The translations under genes were made by a program, and so were the position numbers. A DNA stretch of 64,000 nucleotides. It comes from Massilia polaris (GTDB lineage: Bacteria > Pseudomonadota > Gammaproteobacteria > Burkholderiales > Burkholderiaceae_D). The notes under the pieces were generated by a model. The model did no database searches. It saw nothing but the letters and a program-made list of their open reading frames with translations, and was not told the DNA's origin. Position 1 is the first letter of the stretch. Each line of letters opens with the position of its first letter. The stretch covers positions 186,001-250,000 of the forward strand of contig NZ_JABBGG010000001.1 in assembly GCF_012927275.1 (NCBI RefSeq). Direction: 5' to 3'. This document shows positions 38,056-45,232 of this stretch, piece after piece.

Positions 38056-38595
38056 TTACAACTGCCTGCAAAACTCCATCAACATCCGCTCACCCTCGGG
38101 CCACTCGCCGTATCCGCTGGCCCCGTTGATATGTCCCGCTTCGCCGATCTCCACAAACCTGCTGCCCCACGCGGCGGCGATGGCGCGCGCGCGTTCGAGC
38201 GTCACGTATTCATCGTTTGAGCTGGCCATCACGATGCTTGGAAACGGCAGCTTCTCCATCGGCATCGGCTGGAATCCGACCGCTTCGGCCGGATAGGCCG
38301 GCGCGTCGACATCGCTCGGCGCGACCAGGAAAGCCCCGGCGACCTTCAACGGCGAACCGGAAGCGGCCCATTTCGCCACCGTGACGCAGGCCAGGCTGTG
38401 CGCCACCAGCACCGGCGGACCTTCGCATTCGGCGATGGCGGCGTCCACCTCGGCCACCCATTCATCGCATTCCGGATTGTTCCAGTCCCGGTGGGCAGCG
38501 CGCCTCCATTCCGGGTGCTTTTGCTCCCACATCGTCTGCCAGTGCTGCGGCCCGGAGTTCCACAGTCCGGCCAGGATAATCACGTCGCATTCCAT
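38056..38595 (-). CDS. RBBP9/YdeN-family alpha/beta hydrolase
   Basis: This 179-residue serine hydrolase resembles the RBBP9/YdeN family. The N-terminus has LAGLWNSGPQHWQTMWEQ, the nucleophile is in VLVAHSLACVTVAKWA, the Asp in MASSNDEYVTLERA and the His in EIGEAGHINGASGYG. Small bacterial members have unknown substrates. It stands alone, converging with htpG. The length fits the family. Confidence 0.88.
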   Translation of the reverse strand: MECDVIILAGLWNSGPQHWQTMWEQKHPEWRRAAHRDWNNPECDEWVAEVDAAIAECEGPPVLVAHSLACVTVAKWAASGSPLKVAGAFLVAPSDVDAPAYPAEAVGFQPMPMEKLPFPSIVMASSNDEYVTLERARAIAAAWGSRFVEIGEAGHINGASGYGEWPEGERMLMEFCRQL

Positions 38596-38639: not shown

Positions 38640-39971
38640 CTAGAAGGTGGTTGGCATGCGCAGCGTCAGCGAGACGTCCGGCGTGTCGCGGGTGACGCCG
38701 GCCCCGACCGAGACGTTCAGGCTGCGCTTGTTGTTCAGGCGGTAGGAGTAGGCGATCAGCAGCGTTCCCAGCTGGGTGCGCACCGATCCTGGCACCGTAA
38801 TATCGTTCTGCTTCATGCGGCCGACCGAGCTGTGGTCGTAGCCGATGCTGACCGATGCCTTGTCGTTCAGCGCCAGGCCCATGCCGAAGTTGAAGCCGAT
38901 GACGCCGCCCGGTTTCAGCTCGCCCAGCAGTTCTTTCTCGCCGCCCAGCACGGTGCGGCTGACGTTGCTGCGCTTGAAGTTGTGGGTGTAGCTGACGGTG
39001 CCGAAGAAGACCGCCGGGTCGGACGGGAACAGCCAGGTCAGCGACGGCTGCATCGAATAGAAACCGGAGCCGGTCGGCAGGTCGAGCGGCAGGCCGGTGC
39101 CGGTAGCGTTGGGGCCCACGCAGCGCGTGTTGCAGTCGGTAATGACTTCGAACGGGTCCTTGCCGGTACGGCTCTTGATGCGCAGGCCGCCGACATAATA
39201 GGGCTTGTCCGCGCCGCCATTGTTAAGCTGGTAGCGCGCCGCGAACTCGGCGTCGCCGACATTGCGGCCGCTGGTTTCGAACACGCGTTCCACCGCCGTG
39301 CCGGTAAACAGTTCGCGGCTGACGGTGGAATCGGAACGGTACACATAGGGCACCCGGGCTTCGACTTCAAGCCGGTTGGACAGGCCGGTACGGAATGCCA
39401 GCGATCCGGTCAGGGTGTTGCGCTTGACCTCGCGTACGTCGATCAGGCCGATCAGCAGGGCAGGGATGATGGTGTAGCCGACCAGCGCCACCCGGTTGTT
39501 CGAGGAGTAGCCGAACTGGATCGAGGGTTCGAGGATGTATTTGCCGCGCTGGGTCAGGATGCCGGGCTGTTCGAACAGGGGCGCCACTTCGGGCGGACGG
39601 CCATCCTTGCGCGGTGGCTCGCCGACCTGCTCCTTCTGCGCGACGGCCGCCGCTACCGCGGGCGGCGCCGCCACCGGCATGGGCGCCTGGGCAGCGGCCG
39701 GTTGCGGCGTTACCGGTGCCGCACTTGGCGCCGGCGCCTGGCCGGTGCCACGCTCGTCGGCAAGCTTGCCTTCGTCGGCGCCACGGATCTGTTCCAGCTC
39801 CGACGACAGTTTTTCGATCAGCGCACGTTGTTCATCCAGTTGCGCGCGCAGCTTTGCCAGTTGCGCCGCCAGCGGTTGCGGAGAAGGCGCTACCTGCGCC
39901 TGGGTTGCGGAAGCCAGCATCACTGCAGTAAGACCGGCACAGCTCAAACGCCAGGCGGGTGATCGATGCAT
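38640..39971 (-). CDS. Outer-membrane beta-barrel with N-terminal coiled coil (FapF-like)
   Basis: This 443-residue protein has a signal peptide (to TQAQ, about residue 26) and a helical stretch (LAKLRAQLDEQRALIEKLSS, residues 38-57) predicted to form a coiled coil. A Pro/Ala linker follows, then a beta-barrel domain (ILEPSIQFGYSSNNR onward) ending LRMPTTF with a C-terminal Phe. This is the layout of FapF, the trimeric pore that exports functional amyloid in Pseudomonas. It is the last gene of the operon, as fapF is. Databases may list relatives as transporter or misnamed acetate kinase. It should export the glycine-rich and small proteins encoded upstream. Confidence 0.72.
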   Translation of the reverse strand: MHRSPAWRLSCAGLTAVMLASATQAQVAPSPQPLAAQLAKLRAQLDEQRALIEKLSSELEQIRGADEGKLADERGTGQAPAPSAAPVTPQPAAAQAPMPVAAPPAVAAAVAQKEQVGEPPRKDGRPPEVAPLFEQPGILTQRGKYILEPSIQFGYSSNNRVALVGYTIIPALLIGLIDVREVKRNTLTGSLAFRTGLSNRLEVEARVPYVYRSDSTVSRELFTGTAVERVFETSGRNVGDAEFAARYQLNNGGADKPYYVGGLRIKSRTGKDPFEVITDCNTRCVGPNATGTGLPLDLPTGSGFYSMQPSLTWLFPSDPAVFFGTVSYTHNFKRSNVSRTVLGGEKELLGELKPGGVIGFNFGMGLALNDKASVSIGYDHSSVGRMKQNDITVPGSVRTQLGTLLIAYSYRLNNKRSLNVSVGAGVTRDTPDVSLTLRMPTTF

Positions 39972-39995
39972 GTATTTCTCCTTGGGTCTTGGCGC

Positions 39996-40472
39996 TCAGA
40001 GTGCTCCGATCCCCTGGAGCGCTGCGTCGCGCACACTTTGGTTGAAATTCAGGTCCTTCAGCAGCATGGTGCTGTTCACGCTAGAGCTTATCACCGTCTG
40101 GCTGCGAATTATCTGGTCGCTCAGAGAATTCTGTATAAAAGTACCAGAAATGCCGTCGCCGGTGAACACATTGCCGACCCCGTTCTGTACCAGCGTGGTC
40201 GCCGCCAGCGCTTCTTGTGCGTTCAGCGCTTCGGCGCTGGTCATGGCGCGGATGTCGGCAATCTGCAACGAGGTTCGCGCGACGACGTCGCCGTTGATGG
40301 TCACCACGCGCTGGATGCCAAGCGATACTTCAAGGCCGGCCGGCGTGGTGAATCCGCCGCGCGACTGCTCCAGCACTTCGGCCGACACCGGTTCCCAGCC
40401 TTCCTGGGAAGCGGCTGCAGGCGTGAGGGCTAACAACAGCGCCACGCCCATCAAACAGGGATGCGTGTCCAT
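39996..40472 (-). CDS. Small exported protein sharing the QN motif (FapE position)
   Basis: This 158-residue protein has a signal peptide (MDTHPCLMGVALLLALTPAAA). The mature part is rich in Ser, Thr, Asn and Gln and contains IQNSLSDQIIRSQTVI (113-128), a form of the motif found at the C-termini of the 139- and 620-residue proteins of this operon. It lies between the C39 peptidase and the barrel, the position of fapE in Pseudomonas. It may be a minor fibre subunit or an assembly factor. The gap to the barrel gene is 24 bases. No known domain was recognised. Confidence 0.65.
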   Translation of the reverse strand: MDTHPCLMGVALLLALTPAAASQEGWEPVSAEVLEQSRGGFTTPAGLEVSLGIQRVVTINGDVVARTSLQIADIRAMTSAEALNAQEALAATTLVQNGVGNVFTGDGISGTFIQNSLSDQIIRSQTVISSSVNSTMLLKDLNFNQSVRDAALQGIGAL

Positions 40473-40481
40473 GGTATTCCC

Positions 40482-41168
40482 CTAAAATTCCCCCGGACCG
40501 AAACGCGGCAGTGTCGCCATGTCCAGTGCGGTTCTACTGACCGGGTCATCCAGGCGGGCGATTGGCGCGGCACGCCAGTCGGCGGCGCCGTTAAATTCGG
40601 GCATGCCGTTGTACCCGTGGATGACGAACAGCAGCTTGTTTTTCCAGATTTGCTGGAAATTGTTGAGTGACATCGCTCGCGTTCCCCGCGACGGATCGCC
40701 AATCAGGATGCGGCCATCGGCCATGCCCTTGACGACCACAAAGTGGTTGTAGCCCCTGTCCGAAATCAGGACGATGGCGGGCAGTTTGGCTTCGAACAGC
40801 TTTTCGAGCGGAAGCTTGAAACCGTCGCCGCGCAGGCCGCGCGTGGCCAGGAATTTCTGCATGTCGAGCAGGGAAAAGCCCTGGGTGCGGATCTTGGCCT
40901 TGTCGCCGTCGCGGAACATCTGTTCGAATACCGCGTGTTCCGTGACCGGACGGTTGTAGTGATAGGTGAGCAGCGTCGCCACCGCGGCCGAGCCGCAGCT
41001 GAAGTCGAACTGCTGGCGCGTGGTCGTGGCCATGCGCGCCTGCTTGATGGACGTCACCGGAATCTTGACCTGAAGGCTGCCGACGCCGAATTCGATGGCC
41101 TGCGCCGGCGGCCCCAGCGCCATCGCCAACGTCAGCAGGACCGGATAAAGTGTGGATCGCATAATCAT
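40482..41168 (-). CDS. Stand-alone C39 cysteine peptidase (FapD-like)
   Basis: This 228-residue protein has a signal peptide (to AQAIEFG) and a C39 peptidase domain: catalytic Cys58 in QQFDFSCGSAAVA with the oxyanion Gln five residues before, His142 in YNHFVVVKG and Asp158 in LIGDPSRG. Bacteriocin C39 peptidases are fused to ABC exporters and cut after double-Gly. Here there is no ABC part, and the protein should be periplasmic, as with FapD. It overlaps the 139-residue gene by four bases (ATGA). It may process or protect fibre subunits. MIMRS leaves two possible starts three codons apart. Confidence 0.82.
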   Translation of the reverse strand: MIMRSTLYPVLLTLAMALGPPAQAIEFGVGSLQVKIPVTSIKQARMATTTRQQFDFSCGSAAVATLLTYHYNRPVTEHAVFEQMFRDGDKAKIRTQGFSLLDMQKFLATRGLRGDGFKLPLEKLFEAKLPAIVLISDRGYNHFVVVKGMADGRILIGDPSRGTRAMSLNNFQQIWKNKLLFVIHGYNGMPEFNGAADWRAAPIARLDDPVSRTALDMATLPRFGPGEF

Positions 41169-41584
41169 CTGAGTTGCAGGTTGACGACAGTGGCGTTCTG
41201 GATCAGGACGTTGGCTCCGCTGTTTTGAATGACCATGGGGATGCCGCTCATGTTGGCGAAGGACCCGGAATCGATGATGTTGTTGCCGGTCACCACGTTG
41301 ATCGCGGTATTGCCGGTGACAACGCCACTCAAATCTGCTTTGTTATTTACGGTGGACACGTTCGAATCGCCGCCGCGCTCCTCTTCGAGGCGGGTTTCAG
41401 GTGCTGCCTTGGCGACCTGTGCGACAGCATCTTTGGCTGGCGCCGGTGCGGGTGGCGGTGCGGTTGCGGGTGCGGCTGCAGCAGCTTCGCCTGGCATGGG
41501 CTCTGGCGGGGGGCCGGCCAAGGTGCCCCCGGACGCGCCCAGTGCCAGCGCCAGCAGCGCCGCAACTGTGATCGATGTTTTCAT
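41165..41584 (-). CDS. Small exported protein with C-terminal QN motif (putative minor fibre subunit)
   Basis: This 139-residue protein has a signal peptide (MKTSITVAALLALALGASGG) and a Pro/Ala-rich spacer. The C-terminal domain is rich in Asn and Val (NNKADLSGVVTGNTAINVVT) and ends IQNSGANVLIQNATVV (119-134) plus five residues. It closely resembles the C-terminus of the 620-residue protein, which suggests the two co-assemble. Its small size and position fit a nucleator or minor subunit like FapB. It is translationally coupled to the C39 peptidase. GGGAGCC precedes the ATG. I know of no named family. Confidence 0.65.
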   Translation of the reverse strand: MKTSITVAALLALALGASGGTLAGPPPEPMPGEAAAAAPATAPPPAPAPAKDAVAQVAKAAPETRLEEERGGDSNVSTVNNKADLSGVVTGNTAINVVTGNNIIDSGSFANMSGIPMVIQNSGANVLIQNATVVNLQLR

Positions 41585-41601
41585 CTTGGCTCCCGTCGGG
41601 T

Positions 41602-41625
41602 GCGCTCCGCCCGCAGGCGGAGCGC
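41602..41625. other. Intra-operon hairpin after the glycine-rich gene
   Basis: A 10-bp perfect G/C stem (GCGCTCCGCC with GGCGGAGCGC) closes a four-base loop in the 84-bp gap after the large structural gene. There is no T tract. It may let the structural gene be made in excess by stabilising its transcript or reducing readthrough, as in pilus and curli operons. Confidence 0.65.
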
Positions 41626-41668
41626 TTGTTTGCAGCCCAGCGCGAACGCCGGGCCGCGGGGGGACAGC

Positions 41669-43531
41669 TTATTGGCCCAACGTCAGGTTGGACTGAACAA
41701 CACTGCTTTGCTGGATCAGCGAGGAGAATCCGTTGTTCTGGACTACCTGCATGATACCGGCTGCCGACTGACCAGCACTTGTCATGGTGTTGGACATATC
41801 GAAGCTGCCTGCGGTCACATTGTTGGTGCCGCCACTGCCGCCGGTGCCGGCCGCGCCAGCGCCGCCAGTGCCAGCTCCACCGGTATTGGTACCGCCATCG
41901 CCGCCTGCGCCGCTGGTGGCCGTGCCGCCAGTGCCGCCCGCGCCGCCGGCGCCAGCGTTGTTGGTGCCGGCAGTTGCCGTGCCGCCAGTCGCATTGCCGC
42001 CGGTTGCCGCACCGCCCGCTGCGCCTGCACCGCCGCTGTTGGAAGCGGCTCCGGACGAGCCTCCTGCACCGCCAGCACCGCCGCCAGCGCCATCACCGCC
42101 AGTCGAGGTGCCGCCGGCACCGCCGGATCCGCCTGCTCCGCCGCCACCGCCGGTATTGGTGCCACCTGCGCCACCCGTGGAGCCGCCGCCGGCACCGCCA
42201 GTGTTGGTACCATTGCCGCCAGCACCAGCGCCGCCGCTGGCGCCGCCTGAGCCGGCTGCGCCGTTACCTGCCGTGGAGGTGGCAGCAGCGCCGTCGCCGC
42301 CGGTGCCGCCGCCGCCGCCCGAGCCGCCTGCACCGCCACCGCCCGAGGTCGCTGCGCCGGTCGTTGCAGTGGCGTCGCCCGCCGTGGAAGCACCACCCGT
42401 GGCCGCACCACCCGTGGCCGCACCACCCGTGCCAGCGCCGCCGGTGGAAGTGCCGGTGTTGTTGTCGTTGCGACGGCCGGAAGTGCCGGCATCGCTGTTG
42501 CCGCCATCGGTGTTGCCGCTGTCGGCATTGCCGCCATCGGTGTTGCCGCTGTCGGAGCCATTGCGTGCGTCGAGCTCGGTGCTGCCGATCCGGCCGCTGG
42601 AACCACCCTTGGCGCCGTCGCCGCCGCCGCCTGCTTTCCCGCCATAGCCGCCGTTGGTGTCGCCACTGTCGCCGCCACCGCCGCCGTCGCCTTCACCGCC
42701 ACTGCCGCTGTCGCCGCCGTTGGCGCCTTTGATATTGCCGGTGTCGCCGCCGTTGGAACTGCCGGCTCTACCGCCATTGGCATTGCCGGTGTCGCCGCCG
42801 TTGCCGCCATCGTCGCCGTCGCCGCCGCTGTTGCGGCCGCCTGCACGGCCGCCGTCGCCGCCGTTGCCGCCATCGTTTCCACCACCGCCGTCGCCGGTAC
42901 GGGCACCCCTGGCATTGCCACCGTCGCCGCCGCTGCCGGCGTCAGCGTCGCCGGCTTCGACTTCGCCGTTCTTGGCGTTGGCGCCATAGGCGTCGCCGCC
43001 GGACGAGCCGGACGATGCTTTGCCGCCAATGGCCTTGCCGCCGTCGCCGCCTTCGCTTTCGGCATCGCCGCCGTAGCCCTTGGCGCCGTCGCCGCCAATC
43101 CCTTTTCCACCATTGGCATCGCCGGAGTTACGGGCGCTGTTGCCGATATCGCGGATATCGTTGTCGCTGACCGTACCGCGCAGGGTGCCGGTTGCAGTTG
43201 CGGTAGCGTCGTTAAAGGCATTGGACGCATTCGAGGTGGCCGTTGCGCCGTTGTTGGCGGCAGCTGCGCCGACTCCATCGGCGTCCGCATCGCCATCGCT
43301 GTTGTTCTGGCCGGTGCTTTGGTCGTTGTCGCGGTTGCTGCTGCTGTCATTGCGCGACCGGGCGTTGTCGCTTGCCATGGCCCCGGTACCGGACTGGGTG
43401 TTGTTGCTGGTAGCGTTCTGGGTGTTTCCGCCCGAGACGCCGTCTTTTACCTTGTTTGTCGGTTCGACCGCGTGCGCCGCTGCCATGCTGAACGCCATTG
43501 CGATTGCGGCCGCAATTGATGTCTTGTTCAT
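41669..43531 (-). CDS. Large glycine-rich (silk-like) exported protein, putative main fibre subunit
   Basis: This 620-residue protein has a signal peptide (MNKTSIAAAIAMAFSMAAAH to A). Residues 22-130 are rich in Asn, Ser and Asp; about 130-360 are Gly/Asp/Asn repeats (GGDGG, GGDTGN); about 360-575 are Gly/Ala/Thr repeats (TGGAGTGGA, GGAGG). The C-terminal end is a non-repetitive domain ending VQNNGFSSLIQQSSVV (597-612). The repeats are coded with many synonymous changes and some recent exact copies. The plus-strand open frames here are composition artefacts. It is first in the operon, after a sigma-54 promoter. The design resembles silk-like or glycine-rich surface proteins, with a Fap-like end for export or assembly. 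Confidence 0.75.
   Translation of the reverse strand: MNKTSIAAAIAMAFSMAAAHAVEPTNKVKDGVSGGNTQNATSNNTQSGTGAMASDNARSRNDSSSNRDNDQSTGQNNSDGDADADGVGAAAANNGATATSNASNAFNDATATATGTLRGTVSDNDIRDIGNSARNSGDANGGKGIGGDGAKGYGGDAESEGGDGGKAIGGKASSGSSGGDAYGANAKNGEVEAGDADAGSGGDGGNARGARTGDGGGGNDGGNGGDGGRAGGRNSGGDGDDGGNGGDTGNANGGRAGSSNGGDTGNIKGANGGDSGSGGEGDGGGGGDSGDTNGGYGGKAGGGGDGAKGGSSGRIGSTELDARNGSDSGNTDGGNADSGNTDGGNSDAGTSGRRNDNNTGTSTGGAGTGGAATGGAATGGASTAGDATATTGAATSGGGGAGGSGGGGGTGGDGAAATSTAGNGAAGSGGASGGAGAGGNGTNTGGAGGGSTGGAGGTNTGGGGGAGGSGGAGGTSTGGDGAGGGAGGAGGSSGAASNSGGAGAAGGAATGGNATGGTATAGTNNAGAGGAGGTGGTATSGAGGDGGTNTGGAGTGGAGAAGTGGSGGTNNVTAGSFDMSNTMTSAGQSAAGIMQVVQNNGFSSLIQQSSVVQSNLTLGQ
42391..42430. repeat. 15-base tandem repeat in the glycine-rich gene
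   Basis: CACCACCCGTGGCCG is repeated exactly twice, with a third partial unit, and encodes the ATGGA repeats. Exact copies suggest recent slippage or copy-number change. Confidence 0.8.
42498..42555. repeat. 30-base tandem repeat in the glycine-rich gene
   Basis: Two 28-base identical stretches start at 42498 and 42528 (30-base period) and encode two copies of SGNTDGGNxD. The match is exact, unlike most of the gene. Confidence 0.8.
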
Positions 43532-43599: not shown

Positions 43600-43615
43600 A
43601 GCAAGGACAGTGCCA
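43600..43615 (-). promoter_or_regulatory. Sigma-54 promoter of the glycine-rich fibre operon
   Basis: On the minus strand TGGCACTGTCCTTGCT matches the -24/-12 consensus TGGCAC-N5-TTGCW at every fixed position. It lies about 70 bases before the ATG of the 620-residue protein gene (43531). The neighbouring upstream gene encodes a sigma-54 activator with an intact GAFTGA loop. Confidence 0.88.
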
Positions 43616-43719: not shown

Positions 43720-43750
43720 TGTCTCATTCATGCGACACACCTGTGTCTCA
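43720..43750. promoter_or_regulatory. Candidate activator-binding site upstream of the sigma-54 promoter
   Basis: TGTCTCA occurs at 43720-43726 and 43744-43750, and GACACA-CC-TGTGTC forms an inverted repeat at 43734-43747. They lie 105-135 bases upstream of the -24 box, the usual place for an enhancer-binding protein to bind. The 360-bp gap here (43532-43891) holds no gene. Confidence 0.5.
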
Positions 43751-43891: not shown

Positions 43892-45232
43892 TCAGCCGGC
43901 GGCGCGCACGCCGATGCTGTGTTTGCTGAGGAGGCGGTACAGGGTGGCGCGCGAGATGCCCAGTTCGCGCGCGGTCTTGCTGATGTTGCGGCCGGTGCGG
44001 TCAAGGCAGGCGCAGATGACGTTGCGCTCGGCGCTGGCGCGCGATGTGTCCAGGCCCCCGGTCACCGGGCCGAGCCCGATGTGGTTCAGGCCCAGGTCTT
44101 CGGGGGTAATCAGTTCGCCTTCTGCCAGCACCATCGCACGCCGCACGCGGTTGATCAGTTCGCGCACGTTGCCGGGCCAGTCGTGGCTGCGGATGGCGTG
44201 CAGCGCGCGGTTGGAAAAGCCTTTCAGCTGCGGGCTCTTTTCGTTGCAGTACTGGCTGAAGAAGTGTTCGGCCAGCGTGGTCAGGTCGTCGGCGCGCTCG
44301 CGCAGCGGCGGCACGTTGATCGGGATGACGCTGAGCCGGTAGTACAGATCCTCGCGGAAGGCGCCGTGCGCCACCGCGTCCTGCAGGTCGACGTGGGAAG
44401 CGGCGATCACGCGCGCATCGACCGGGATGCTGCGGGTGCCGCCGACCCGGTAAATGGTTTTCTCCTGCAGGAAGCGCAGCAGGTTGACCTGCAGTTCTTT
44501 CGGCAGGTCGGCGATTTCATCGAGGAAGATGGTGCCGCCGTTGGCCGATTCGATCAGGCCCTGCTTTTCCTTGGCCGCGCCGGTGAATGCGCCGCGCTCG
44601 TGGCCGAACAGTTCGGTCTGGATCAGGCTGGCCGGCATGGCGCCGCAGTTGATCGCCACGAACGGTCCGGCCGCCATCGGCGAATGGTCATGGATTTCGC
44701 GCGCGGTGACTTCCTTGCCGCTGCCGCTCTCGCCCCAGATCAGCACCGGTGCGCCGACGCTGGCGATGCGCCGGATCTGGGCGCGCAGGCGCACGACGCT
44801 CGGGCTGTCGCCGGTCAGTGCGTGGGCGCTGTCGGCGCTGGCGCCCCGGGCGCTGCGTTCGCGCAGGTCGGCCAGGCCGTGCACGTGGCCCAGCGTGTGG
44901 TTCAGCAGGACCGGGTCGACCGGCCAGGTGTGGAAGTCGCACAGGTGGTCGCTGGCCAGGTCGCGCCAGCAGGCGTTGTCCATCAGGCCCGCCTCGAACA
45001 CGCCGACCCAGCGGGTGCGCCAGTGGGCGCGGAAGAACACGTCGAGCGCAGCGGCGTTGCCGCCCCCGTTATCGAGCAGCAGTCCGGCCAGGTAGCGCTG
45101 CTGGTGGAGCGCGCGGGCGGCATCGGCCAGGGTGCCGACAATGCACAGGTCCCAGTCGCGCAGCGGGCCGCAACGCGCATGTACCGCCGCAGCGCCGCCA
45201 GGAGAGATGCATAAAAGCCGTTTGATGCCCAT
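43892..45232 (-). CDS. Sigma-54-dependent transcriptional activator with degenerate receiver
   Basis: This 446-residue enhancer-binding protein has an N-terminal receiver-like domain without the paired acidic residues (starts [10 protein letters not shown]), although an Asp is retained in AGLLLDN. The AAA+ domain has Walker A GESGSGKE (167-174), the sigma-54 contact loop GAFTGA (214-219), Walker [13 protein letters not shown] and the Arg finger region. The C-terminus is a Fis-type helix-turn-helix ([17 protein letters not shown]). The layout resembles VpsR- or FleQ-like regulators that may respond to cyclic di-GMP rather than phosphorylation. The start is the ATG at 45232. It is directly upstream of, and codirectional with, the fibre operon. 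Confidence 0.9.

Follow-up and report, generated by a model that had tools for sequence, protein, structure and literature searches.

The window analyzed in this work, i.e., a 64,000-nucleotide stretch of the contig NZ_JABBGG010000001.1 of the soil bacterium Massilia polaris (positions 186,001 to 250,000), carries on its minus strand a five-gene operon (38640–43531), which is fairly probably a Fap-related secretion operon of a branch that stands next to the Fap amyloid systems. This reading relies on the homology of the barrel and the peptidase, the conserved gene order, the promoter, the type of regulator, a site shared by several products, and the related C-terminal units. From the first gene to the last, the operon encodes a 620-amino acid (aa) glycine-rich major subunit (41669..43531), a 139-aa minor subunit (41165..41584), a stand-alone 228-aa C39 peptidase (40482..41168), a 158-aa FapE-like protein (39996..40472), and a 443-aa FapF-like outer-membrane barrel with a coiled-coil start (38640..39971). 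The gaps between successive genes are 84, −4 (an overlap), 9, and 24 bases, and no ABC (ATP-binding cassette) transporter was found among the operon genes. All five products start with a Sec-type signal sequence, as judged by eye; the initial annotation, which described five exported proteins in one minus-strand operon, agreed with the list of open reading frames (ORFs) of the window in every position. The genome of the strain encodes one barrel and one glycine-rich major subunit of this type.

The barrel aligned with the sequence of the FapF crystal structure (PDB 5o67) over residues 123–441, including the LPTG stretch (1.3e-28), and with the NCBIfam FapF model over residues 13–443 (4.5e-40, 138 bits against a cut-off of 700). 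It also shares with FapF-type barrels the PTG motif and the coiled coil, the latter judged by visible heptads. For the peptidase, the best curated model was NCBIfam FapD (1.9e-39, 135 bits against a cut-off of 330), followed by FilB (1.9e-34), and the match to Pfam C39 reached 7.9e-22; its catalytic residues (Q52, C58, H142, D158) do not vary among 17 homologs, consistent with a stand-alone enzyme of the FapD type. The 158-aa protein matched no relevant curated family, including the NCBIfam FapE model, and a fold search with its AlphaFold model (mean predicted local distance difference test (pLDDT) of 72) gave no relative (best E 0.45). A profile of its family, compared with 14 FapE proteins (taken as the ORF between the C39 and barrel genes in loci with high FapF scores), aligned over 35 columns with an E-value of 1.5e-4, which none of 100 column permutations equaled; this suggests that the protein is a remote FapE relative. 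The NCBIfam FapE model matched all 14 of these reference proteins (1e-22; 9.7e-20 to 9.4e-35; 2.7e-18 to 2.9e-29), in each case under its 250-bit cut-off. The initial annotation had compared the last three genes to fapD-E-F and had made this comparison depend on matches of the barrel to FapF and of the peptidase to FapD and on linkage of the genes in relatives. Both matches were found (for the barrel by comparison of sequences, not folds), the 158-aa protein aligns with FapE around an LxxxRG motif, and the genes are linked in relatives, so the comparison stands.

The same NCBIfam FapF model, run against 369 genomes of the class, found matches in 69 of them, none over the cut-off. Seventeen matches scored 307–456 bits and 18, that of the window among them, 111–171 bits; the range between these groups was empty, and all other matches scored lower. 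A tree built from 62 barrels placed the window within a 39-row clade (branch values 100/99), apart from 15 Fap rows (93/93) and from the Fil barrel; L193, one of the 18 matches at 111–171 bits, lies outside this clade. The loci called Fap here were so named by their place in the tree and by their FapE; L161, L162, L169, L036, and L124 displayed Fap repeats, and a check for FapC, limited to L161, gave a match above the cut-off (212 bits against 195). A set of 21 rows (96/90) gathered 20 rows of the glycine-rich type and one uncertain row. Another glycine-rich locus, L191, is placed elsewhere in the tree (three changes, at least two of them forced by starred branches), so that glycine-rich middles may have more than one origin. 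The major subunit of this locus (L191:1706-3325) also has a different C-terminus, possibly pointing to an independent origin. Pairs of C39 and barrel genes were additionally observed in L037 and L038 (both from the bacterial family of the window), L193, and L196, their barrels lying far outside the Fap, Fil, and window clades.

The search for the five-gene order in relatives, suggested in the initial annotation, showed strong conservation. A barrel search in 60 genomes gave 18 matching genomes, 14 of them (the own genome included) at 6.5e-92 or better; in this first set, the genes were rearranged in L032, L034, and L035, and L033 had a barrel without the other genes. A scan of named genomes was then restricted to the best 80 of 326 relatives, representing Massilia, Janthinobacterium, Duganella, Pseudoduganella, Telluria, Rugamonas, a Herbaspirillum sp., and two Rhodoferax assemblies. 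Of these 80 loci, 58 extend 4.5 kb or more beyond the upstream side of the barrel and could be counted (the other 22 had too little flank), and 55 of the 58 kept the order major–139-aa–C39–158-aa–barrel on one strand. In 51 of these 55, the activator gene described below lies upstream of the major subunit gene and not more than 7.5 kb from the barrel end; it is further off in three, and L058 has none within the flank examined. As for the exceptions to the order, L107 and L119 have all genes linked with the barrel inverted, and in Massilia norwichensis (L068:9780-11389) the 158-aa gene was not found and the C39 frame is short, while the barrel and the major subunit look intact. The operon is also present in Cupriavidus metallidurans CH34 (barrel 62.5% identical over 75%), and plasmids of the Alphaproteobacteria Polymorphobacter and Croceicoccus have the same order with a different kind of major subunit.

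The major subunit consists of a signal sequence, an N part, a glycine-rich middle, and a C-terminal unit, and matched no Pfam or NCBIfam family. Its middle (residues 114–594, 41750..43192, minus strand) comprises 481 aa with 41% glycine. The initial annotation had recognized a repetitive glycine-rich stretch of about 440 residues; the stretch itself was confirmed, but it is slightly longer, and its repeats are irregular, because the DNA itself showed no more than short, imperfect arrays, in 16 overlapping rows. Glycine shows a tendency to a period of three: of 68 regions, 67 have their highest value among lags 1–6 at lag 3, where the autocorrelation is 0.22 on average; in the window, compared with 1000 shuffles, z was 3.4 for lag 3 and almost as high for lag 5 (3.2). 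Elsewhere in the clade, glycine-rich middles occur in L122, L181, L184, and L191, and middles rich in Asn, Ser, and Asp in L183, L185, L188, L189, L190, L180, L123, L126, and L130; the middle is mixed in L178 and nearly absent in L127 and L177, the majors of which have only about 190–215 aa.

At the end of the major subunit there is a single Q/N-rich unit (residues 574–620, 41672..41812, minus strand). The consensus F..A.GI..V.QN.G.N...QQ.V.V..N recurs at the C-terminus of most majors in the clade (it is not clearly kept in L178 and L191), and the window-type profile matched the unit repeated in the majors of L179, L187, and L128 (2.9e-6, 0 of 100 permutations as good). This unit is present in four copies in L179 and L187, and the 1612-aa major of L128 contains 20 matches to [QH]QNxG. 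The latter gene (L128:2733-7571), located on a plasmid of Indioceanicola profundi beside a FapF-like barrel gene, encodes a protein in which the Q/N unit occurs about 20 times; its true start may be further in. The unit profile also matched the C-terminus of the 139-aa protein (4.1e-5), and the C-terminal profiles of the 139-aa and 158-aa families matched each other (3.6e-7), and in neither case did any of 100 permutations do as well; between the 158-aa C-terminus profile and the unit of the major nothing was found (0.31). Against the Fap repeat, the multi-copy unit aligned in register over 35 columns (1.5e-4, 1 of 100 permutations as good), whereas the window-type unit gave no direct match (E 0.39). 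Descent of the unit from a Fap repeat is possible on these profiles. The statement of the initial annotation that the large subunit is not FapC-like holds for the middle and for the curated models, but the last ~45 residues are one copy of a unit that is found repeated in relatives and has a weak resemblance to the Fap repeat.

Three elements were added to the initial annotation: a promoter, a regulator, and a site common to several products. The sigma-54 (−24/−12) promoter TGGCACTGTCCTTGCT (43600..43615, minus strand) lies 84 bases ahead of the major subunit gene, reads TGGCAC-N5-TTGCT, and is the sole site with at least 11 of 12 positions in the 64-kb window. Sites with at least 10 of 12 positions were present in 49 of 66 orthologous upstream regions, against 0.61 expected by shuffling, and 47 of these 49 lie 73–93 bases ahead of the major gene, i.e., at a nearly fixed distance; as a control, 5 of 360 pieces of the window (350 bases each) reached this score. 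Upstream of the major gene, in the same direction and 360 bases from it, a 446-aa sigma-54 enhancer-binding protein is encoded (43892..45232, minus strand; Sigma54_activat 2.1e-67), which is likely the activator of the operon. Its N-terminus resembles VpsR (2.3e-4, just under the Pfam cut-off), and a VpsR match at E ≤ 0.01 was found in the activators of all 29 relatives scanned. Between both genes, an imperfect palindrome TGAGACACA-GG-TGTGTCGCA (43731..43750, minus strand) is a candidate activator site; 16 of 65 upstream regions contained the pattern GACA-N2-10-TGTC, against 3.0 expected, which is suggestive only, and the palindrome is given as a lead. VpsR binds cyclic di-guanosine monophosphate (c-di-GMP), and the operon may be under c-di-GMP control. 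A precedent is BerB of Burkholderia cenocepacia, reported in PMC5552954 to be a c-di-GMP binder and to act with sigma-54 in biofilm control.

The shared site has the form LxxxRG. It reads LEEERGG in the 139-aa protein (residues 66–72, 41369..41389), LEQSRGG in the 158-aa protein (residues 34–40, 40353..40373), and LADERGT in the linker of the barrel (residues 70–76, 39744..39764), all on the minus strand; the barrel has a second LxxxRG match at residues 59–65. With the pattern [LIVM]xxxR[GA][GTARKS], the motif was found in 84 of 85 members of the 158-aa family (14.2 expected), the exception reading CGG, and L34, R38, G39, and G40 are invariant in 42 sequences. In the 139-aa family, 71 of 86 members had it (10.1 expected); the remaining ones read LGRTSGK, LATLHAG, or similar, or are too diverged. 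For the barrel, a looser pattern, present in 84 of 94 (21 expected), was discarded, as it also picked up heptads such as LEEQRAR. Across 14 barrels, R74 does not vary, and L70 and G75 hardly do. The strict form LxxxRG[TAGS] was present in 61 of 67 linkers against 2.6 expected. This count covers 67 of 86 barrels, since ten without the anchor pattern and nine with a short N part were left out. The latter comprise one barrel at a contig edge and eight Duganella barrels of 353–371 aa (L079, L093, L111, L114, L115, L117, L120, and L121), which can be regarded as natural "pre-trimmed" forms. FapE of the Fap loci carries [LM]xxxRG[RK] in 14 of 14 cases.

C39 peptidases are described in passages of PMC10885120 as recognizing a helical leader by its hydrophobic residues at −12, −7, and −4 and cleaving after GG, GA, or GS. 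Taking the residue after RG as −1 and not counting Ala as hydrophobic, FapE of the Fap loci is hydrophobic at −12 in 14 of 14, at −7 in 14 of 14, and at −4 in 13 of 14 sequences, against 0–2 of 14 at seven other positions. In the 158-aa family, the corresponding counts are 80 of 84 at −12, 84 of 84 at −7, and 26 of 84 at −4, against 0–15 elsewhere, and in the 139-aa family 28 of 71 at −12, 71 of 71 at −7, and 32 of 71 at −4, against 0–18 elsewhere; −7 and RG belonged to the search pattern. The AlphaFold model of the 158-aa protein has a helix at residues 31–37 ahead of RGG (local pLDDT ~60–68). As regards Pseudomonas, passages of PMC5557850 report that the active Cys of FapD is required for FapC secretion, that mass spectra lacked the FapE N-terminus, and that the FapF linker is potentially processed, and they already describe GG/GA motifs in FapE and FapF. 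The substrate of FapD was called "yet to be determined" in a passage of PMC6173800, and later FapD was "thought to" process both the N-terminus of FapE and the portion of FapF in the periplasm (a passage of PMC12822426). The conserved motif, the spacing like that of C39 leaders (clearest in FapE), and the Pseudomonas data on FapE and FapD lead us to propose that FapD-type peptidases cut at LxxxRG, both here and in FapE.

Together, these observations suggest the following mechanism. The VpsR-type enhancer-binding protein and sigma-54 would turn the operon on, and all five products would reach the periplasm via Sec. There, the C39 peptidase is expected to trim leaders at LxxxRG from the 158-aa and 139-aa proteins, and it may also cut the barrel linker, thereby freeing the coiled coil. 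By analogy to Fap, the 620-aa glycine-rich protein is probably exported to the cell surface through the FapF-like barrel, presumably together with the 139-aa and 158-aa proteins. The exported proteins could dock or assemble through strands formed by their C-terminal Q/N-rich units, and the glycine-rich stretch could be the body of a surface fiber or coat; whether the major subunit forms a fiber is, in our estimation, about evenly balanced.

A number of observations weigh against this picture. The barrel and the peptidase score under the NCBI cut-offs for FapF and FapD, the FapE relation of the 158-aa protein extends over 35 columns, and the counted relatives are mostly close kin and not independent. 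AlphaFold gave no fold for the 620-aa major (mean pLDDT 38.5) and is silent for or against polyglycine II. As to the cut site, it is absent from the N part of the major (6 of 71, 4.4 expected), and the eight Duganella barrels begin directly after the signal sequence, without coiled coil and site. Moreover, only three of 14 FapF proteins of the Fap loci have the motif, one of them in the linker, and therefore the barrel part of the cut-site case is weaker. Position −4 is hydrophobic in only 26 of 84 members of the 158-aa family (65 if Ala is counted), and −12 is weakly so in the 139-aa family (28 of 71). Finally, the residue at −1 differs by protein, being G, T or A, and R or K, which leaves the exact bond unsure.

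Among the alternative explanations, a strict Fap operon, with the glycine-rich protein as a diverged FapC building a cross-beta amyloid from Fap repeats, has in its favor the FapD-FapE-FapF order and homology and the in-register alignment of the multi-copy unit with Fap repeats. We nevertheless judge it improbable. The FapB, FapC, and FapE models matched no window protein, the major has one C-terminal unit in place of three repeats, the barrel belongs to a separate clade, the window-type unit fails to match the Fap repeat, and even the multi-copy alignment was equaled or beaten by 1 of 100 permutations. As a system, the operon further has in common with Fap the LxxxRG motif of the FapE-like protein and the sigma-54/VpsR-type activator gene, which is present in the examined Fap loci too, and it differs in the absence of FapA and in the glycine-rich middle of its major. 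It probably works like Fap, but it was not filed as Fap because the FapB and FapC features were checked and not found. The glycine-rich protein might also be exported in the manner proposed here and yet form a non-amyloid coat, a gel, or a single-chain adhesin, resembling PE_PGRS proteins and perhaps folded as polyglycine II. The GG-x tendency seen at lag 3, the exchangeable low-complexity middles, which would suit a spacer or coat, and the lack of an AlphaFold fold are compatible with this, but a conserved unit that is repeated in relatives suggests self-assembly, and we regard such a product as a tentative possibility.

Leader-like sites and a C39 peptidase could also be expected of a small-peptide secretion system, in which the 139-aa and 158-aa proteins would be double-glycine-type effectors or bacteriocin-like peptides and the glycine-rich protein a carrier; the missing ABC transporter and the C-terminal unit that the major has in common with the small proteins make this very unlikely. 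Hardly credible, in turn, is a barrel acting as an uptake channel for hydrophobic molecules with the other genes as accessories. FapF does resemble COG4313 uptake channels (a passage of PMC6173800), and FapF of L161 also matches Phenol_MetA_deg, but the constant linkage with the C39, FapE-like, and major subunit genes and the candidate cut site in the barrel itself speak against this. A Fap-related secretion operon beside Fap is the preferred reading.

This system was also compared with other fiber and leader systems. The Fil system of Acinetobacter (FilA-FilF) shares with it the C39 peptidase and the barrel (FilC model 2e-16). Membership was rejected: the scores were 119 bits for FilB (cut-off 475) and 60 for FilC (cut-off 630), FilA gave no match and is unrelated by family models, the Fil barrel lies outside the window clade, and the gene content differs. 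In the Acinetobacter locus, FilA (L125:6500-7366) starts with a DUF6160 region holding LSAATGQ, loosely like LxxxRG, and FilB reads as two ORFs. Curli (Csg) likewise have Q/N-rich assembly units, a likeness in general terms; however, the barrel and peptidase of the window are of the Fap type, and no curli family was matched by the window proteins or by the three multi-copy or repeat-bearing majors scanned. Mycobacterial PE_PGRS proteins are similar by composition only (glycine-rich, GG-x); the window major has no PE domain match and belongs to another secretion route and another phylum. Double-glycine leaders of C39-dependent systems, i.e., of peptidase-containing ABC transporters and of ribosomally synthesized and post-translationally modified peptides, resemble FapE in the hydrophobic −12/−7/−4 positions and the Gly at −2, and a helix before the site is a further common trait. 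In contrast to them, the peptidase here is stand-alone with its own signal sequence, the leader follows a Sec signal, and the sites have an invariant Arg at −3 and a −1 residue varying by protein.

In a broader perspective, there may be a whole Fap-type branch exporting "one-unit" proteins with an exchangeable low-complexity body (glycine-rich, Asn/Ser-rich, or a repeated unit), and in this branch as in Fap, a FapD-type peptidase would mature FapE, joined in the former by the small subunit and the linker of the barrel, at the relic of a double-glycine leader that ends in RG; we give this general proposal about an even chance. LxxxRG is the exact place in which FapD-type cutting should be sought, both in this operon and in the FapE proteins of Fap loci. 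The branch further suggests that a three-repeat amyloid is not an obligatory cargo of Fap-type export. As related machines adjoin glycine-rich, Asn/Ser-rich, and many-unit majors, they would be interesting as exporters for low-complexity fiber proteins. A screen requiring Fap repeats found exactly three repeats almost universal (a passage of PMC12822426), and this branch would be passed over by such screens; in the open-licence literature searched, neither a glycine-rich Fap major nor a FapE leader was found.

Some further observations concern the surroundings and copy number of the operon. A gene of an RBBP9-type serine hydrolase (38056–38595, same strand) starts 44 bases past the barrel gene. 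It was rejected as an operon member, being present in L021 only among the regions of 19 relatives. In L050, L053, and L069, a tandem pair of glycine-rich major genes precedes one set of the other genes, and in L072, L074, L075, and L081, a second, diverged major–139-aa–C39–158-aa–barrel copy is located directly upstream of the first.

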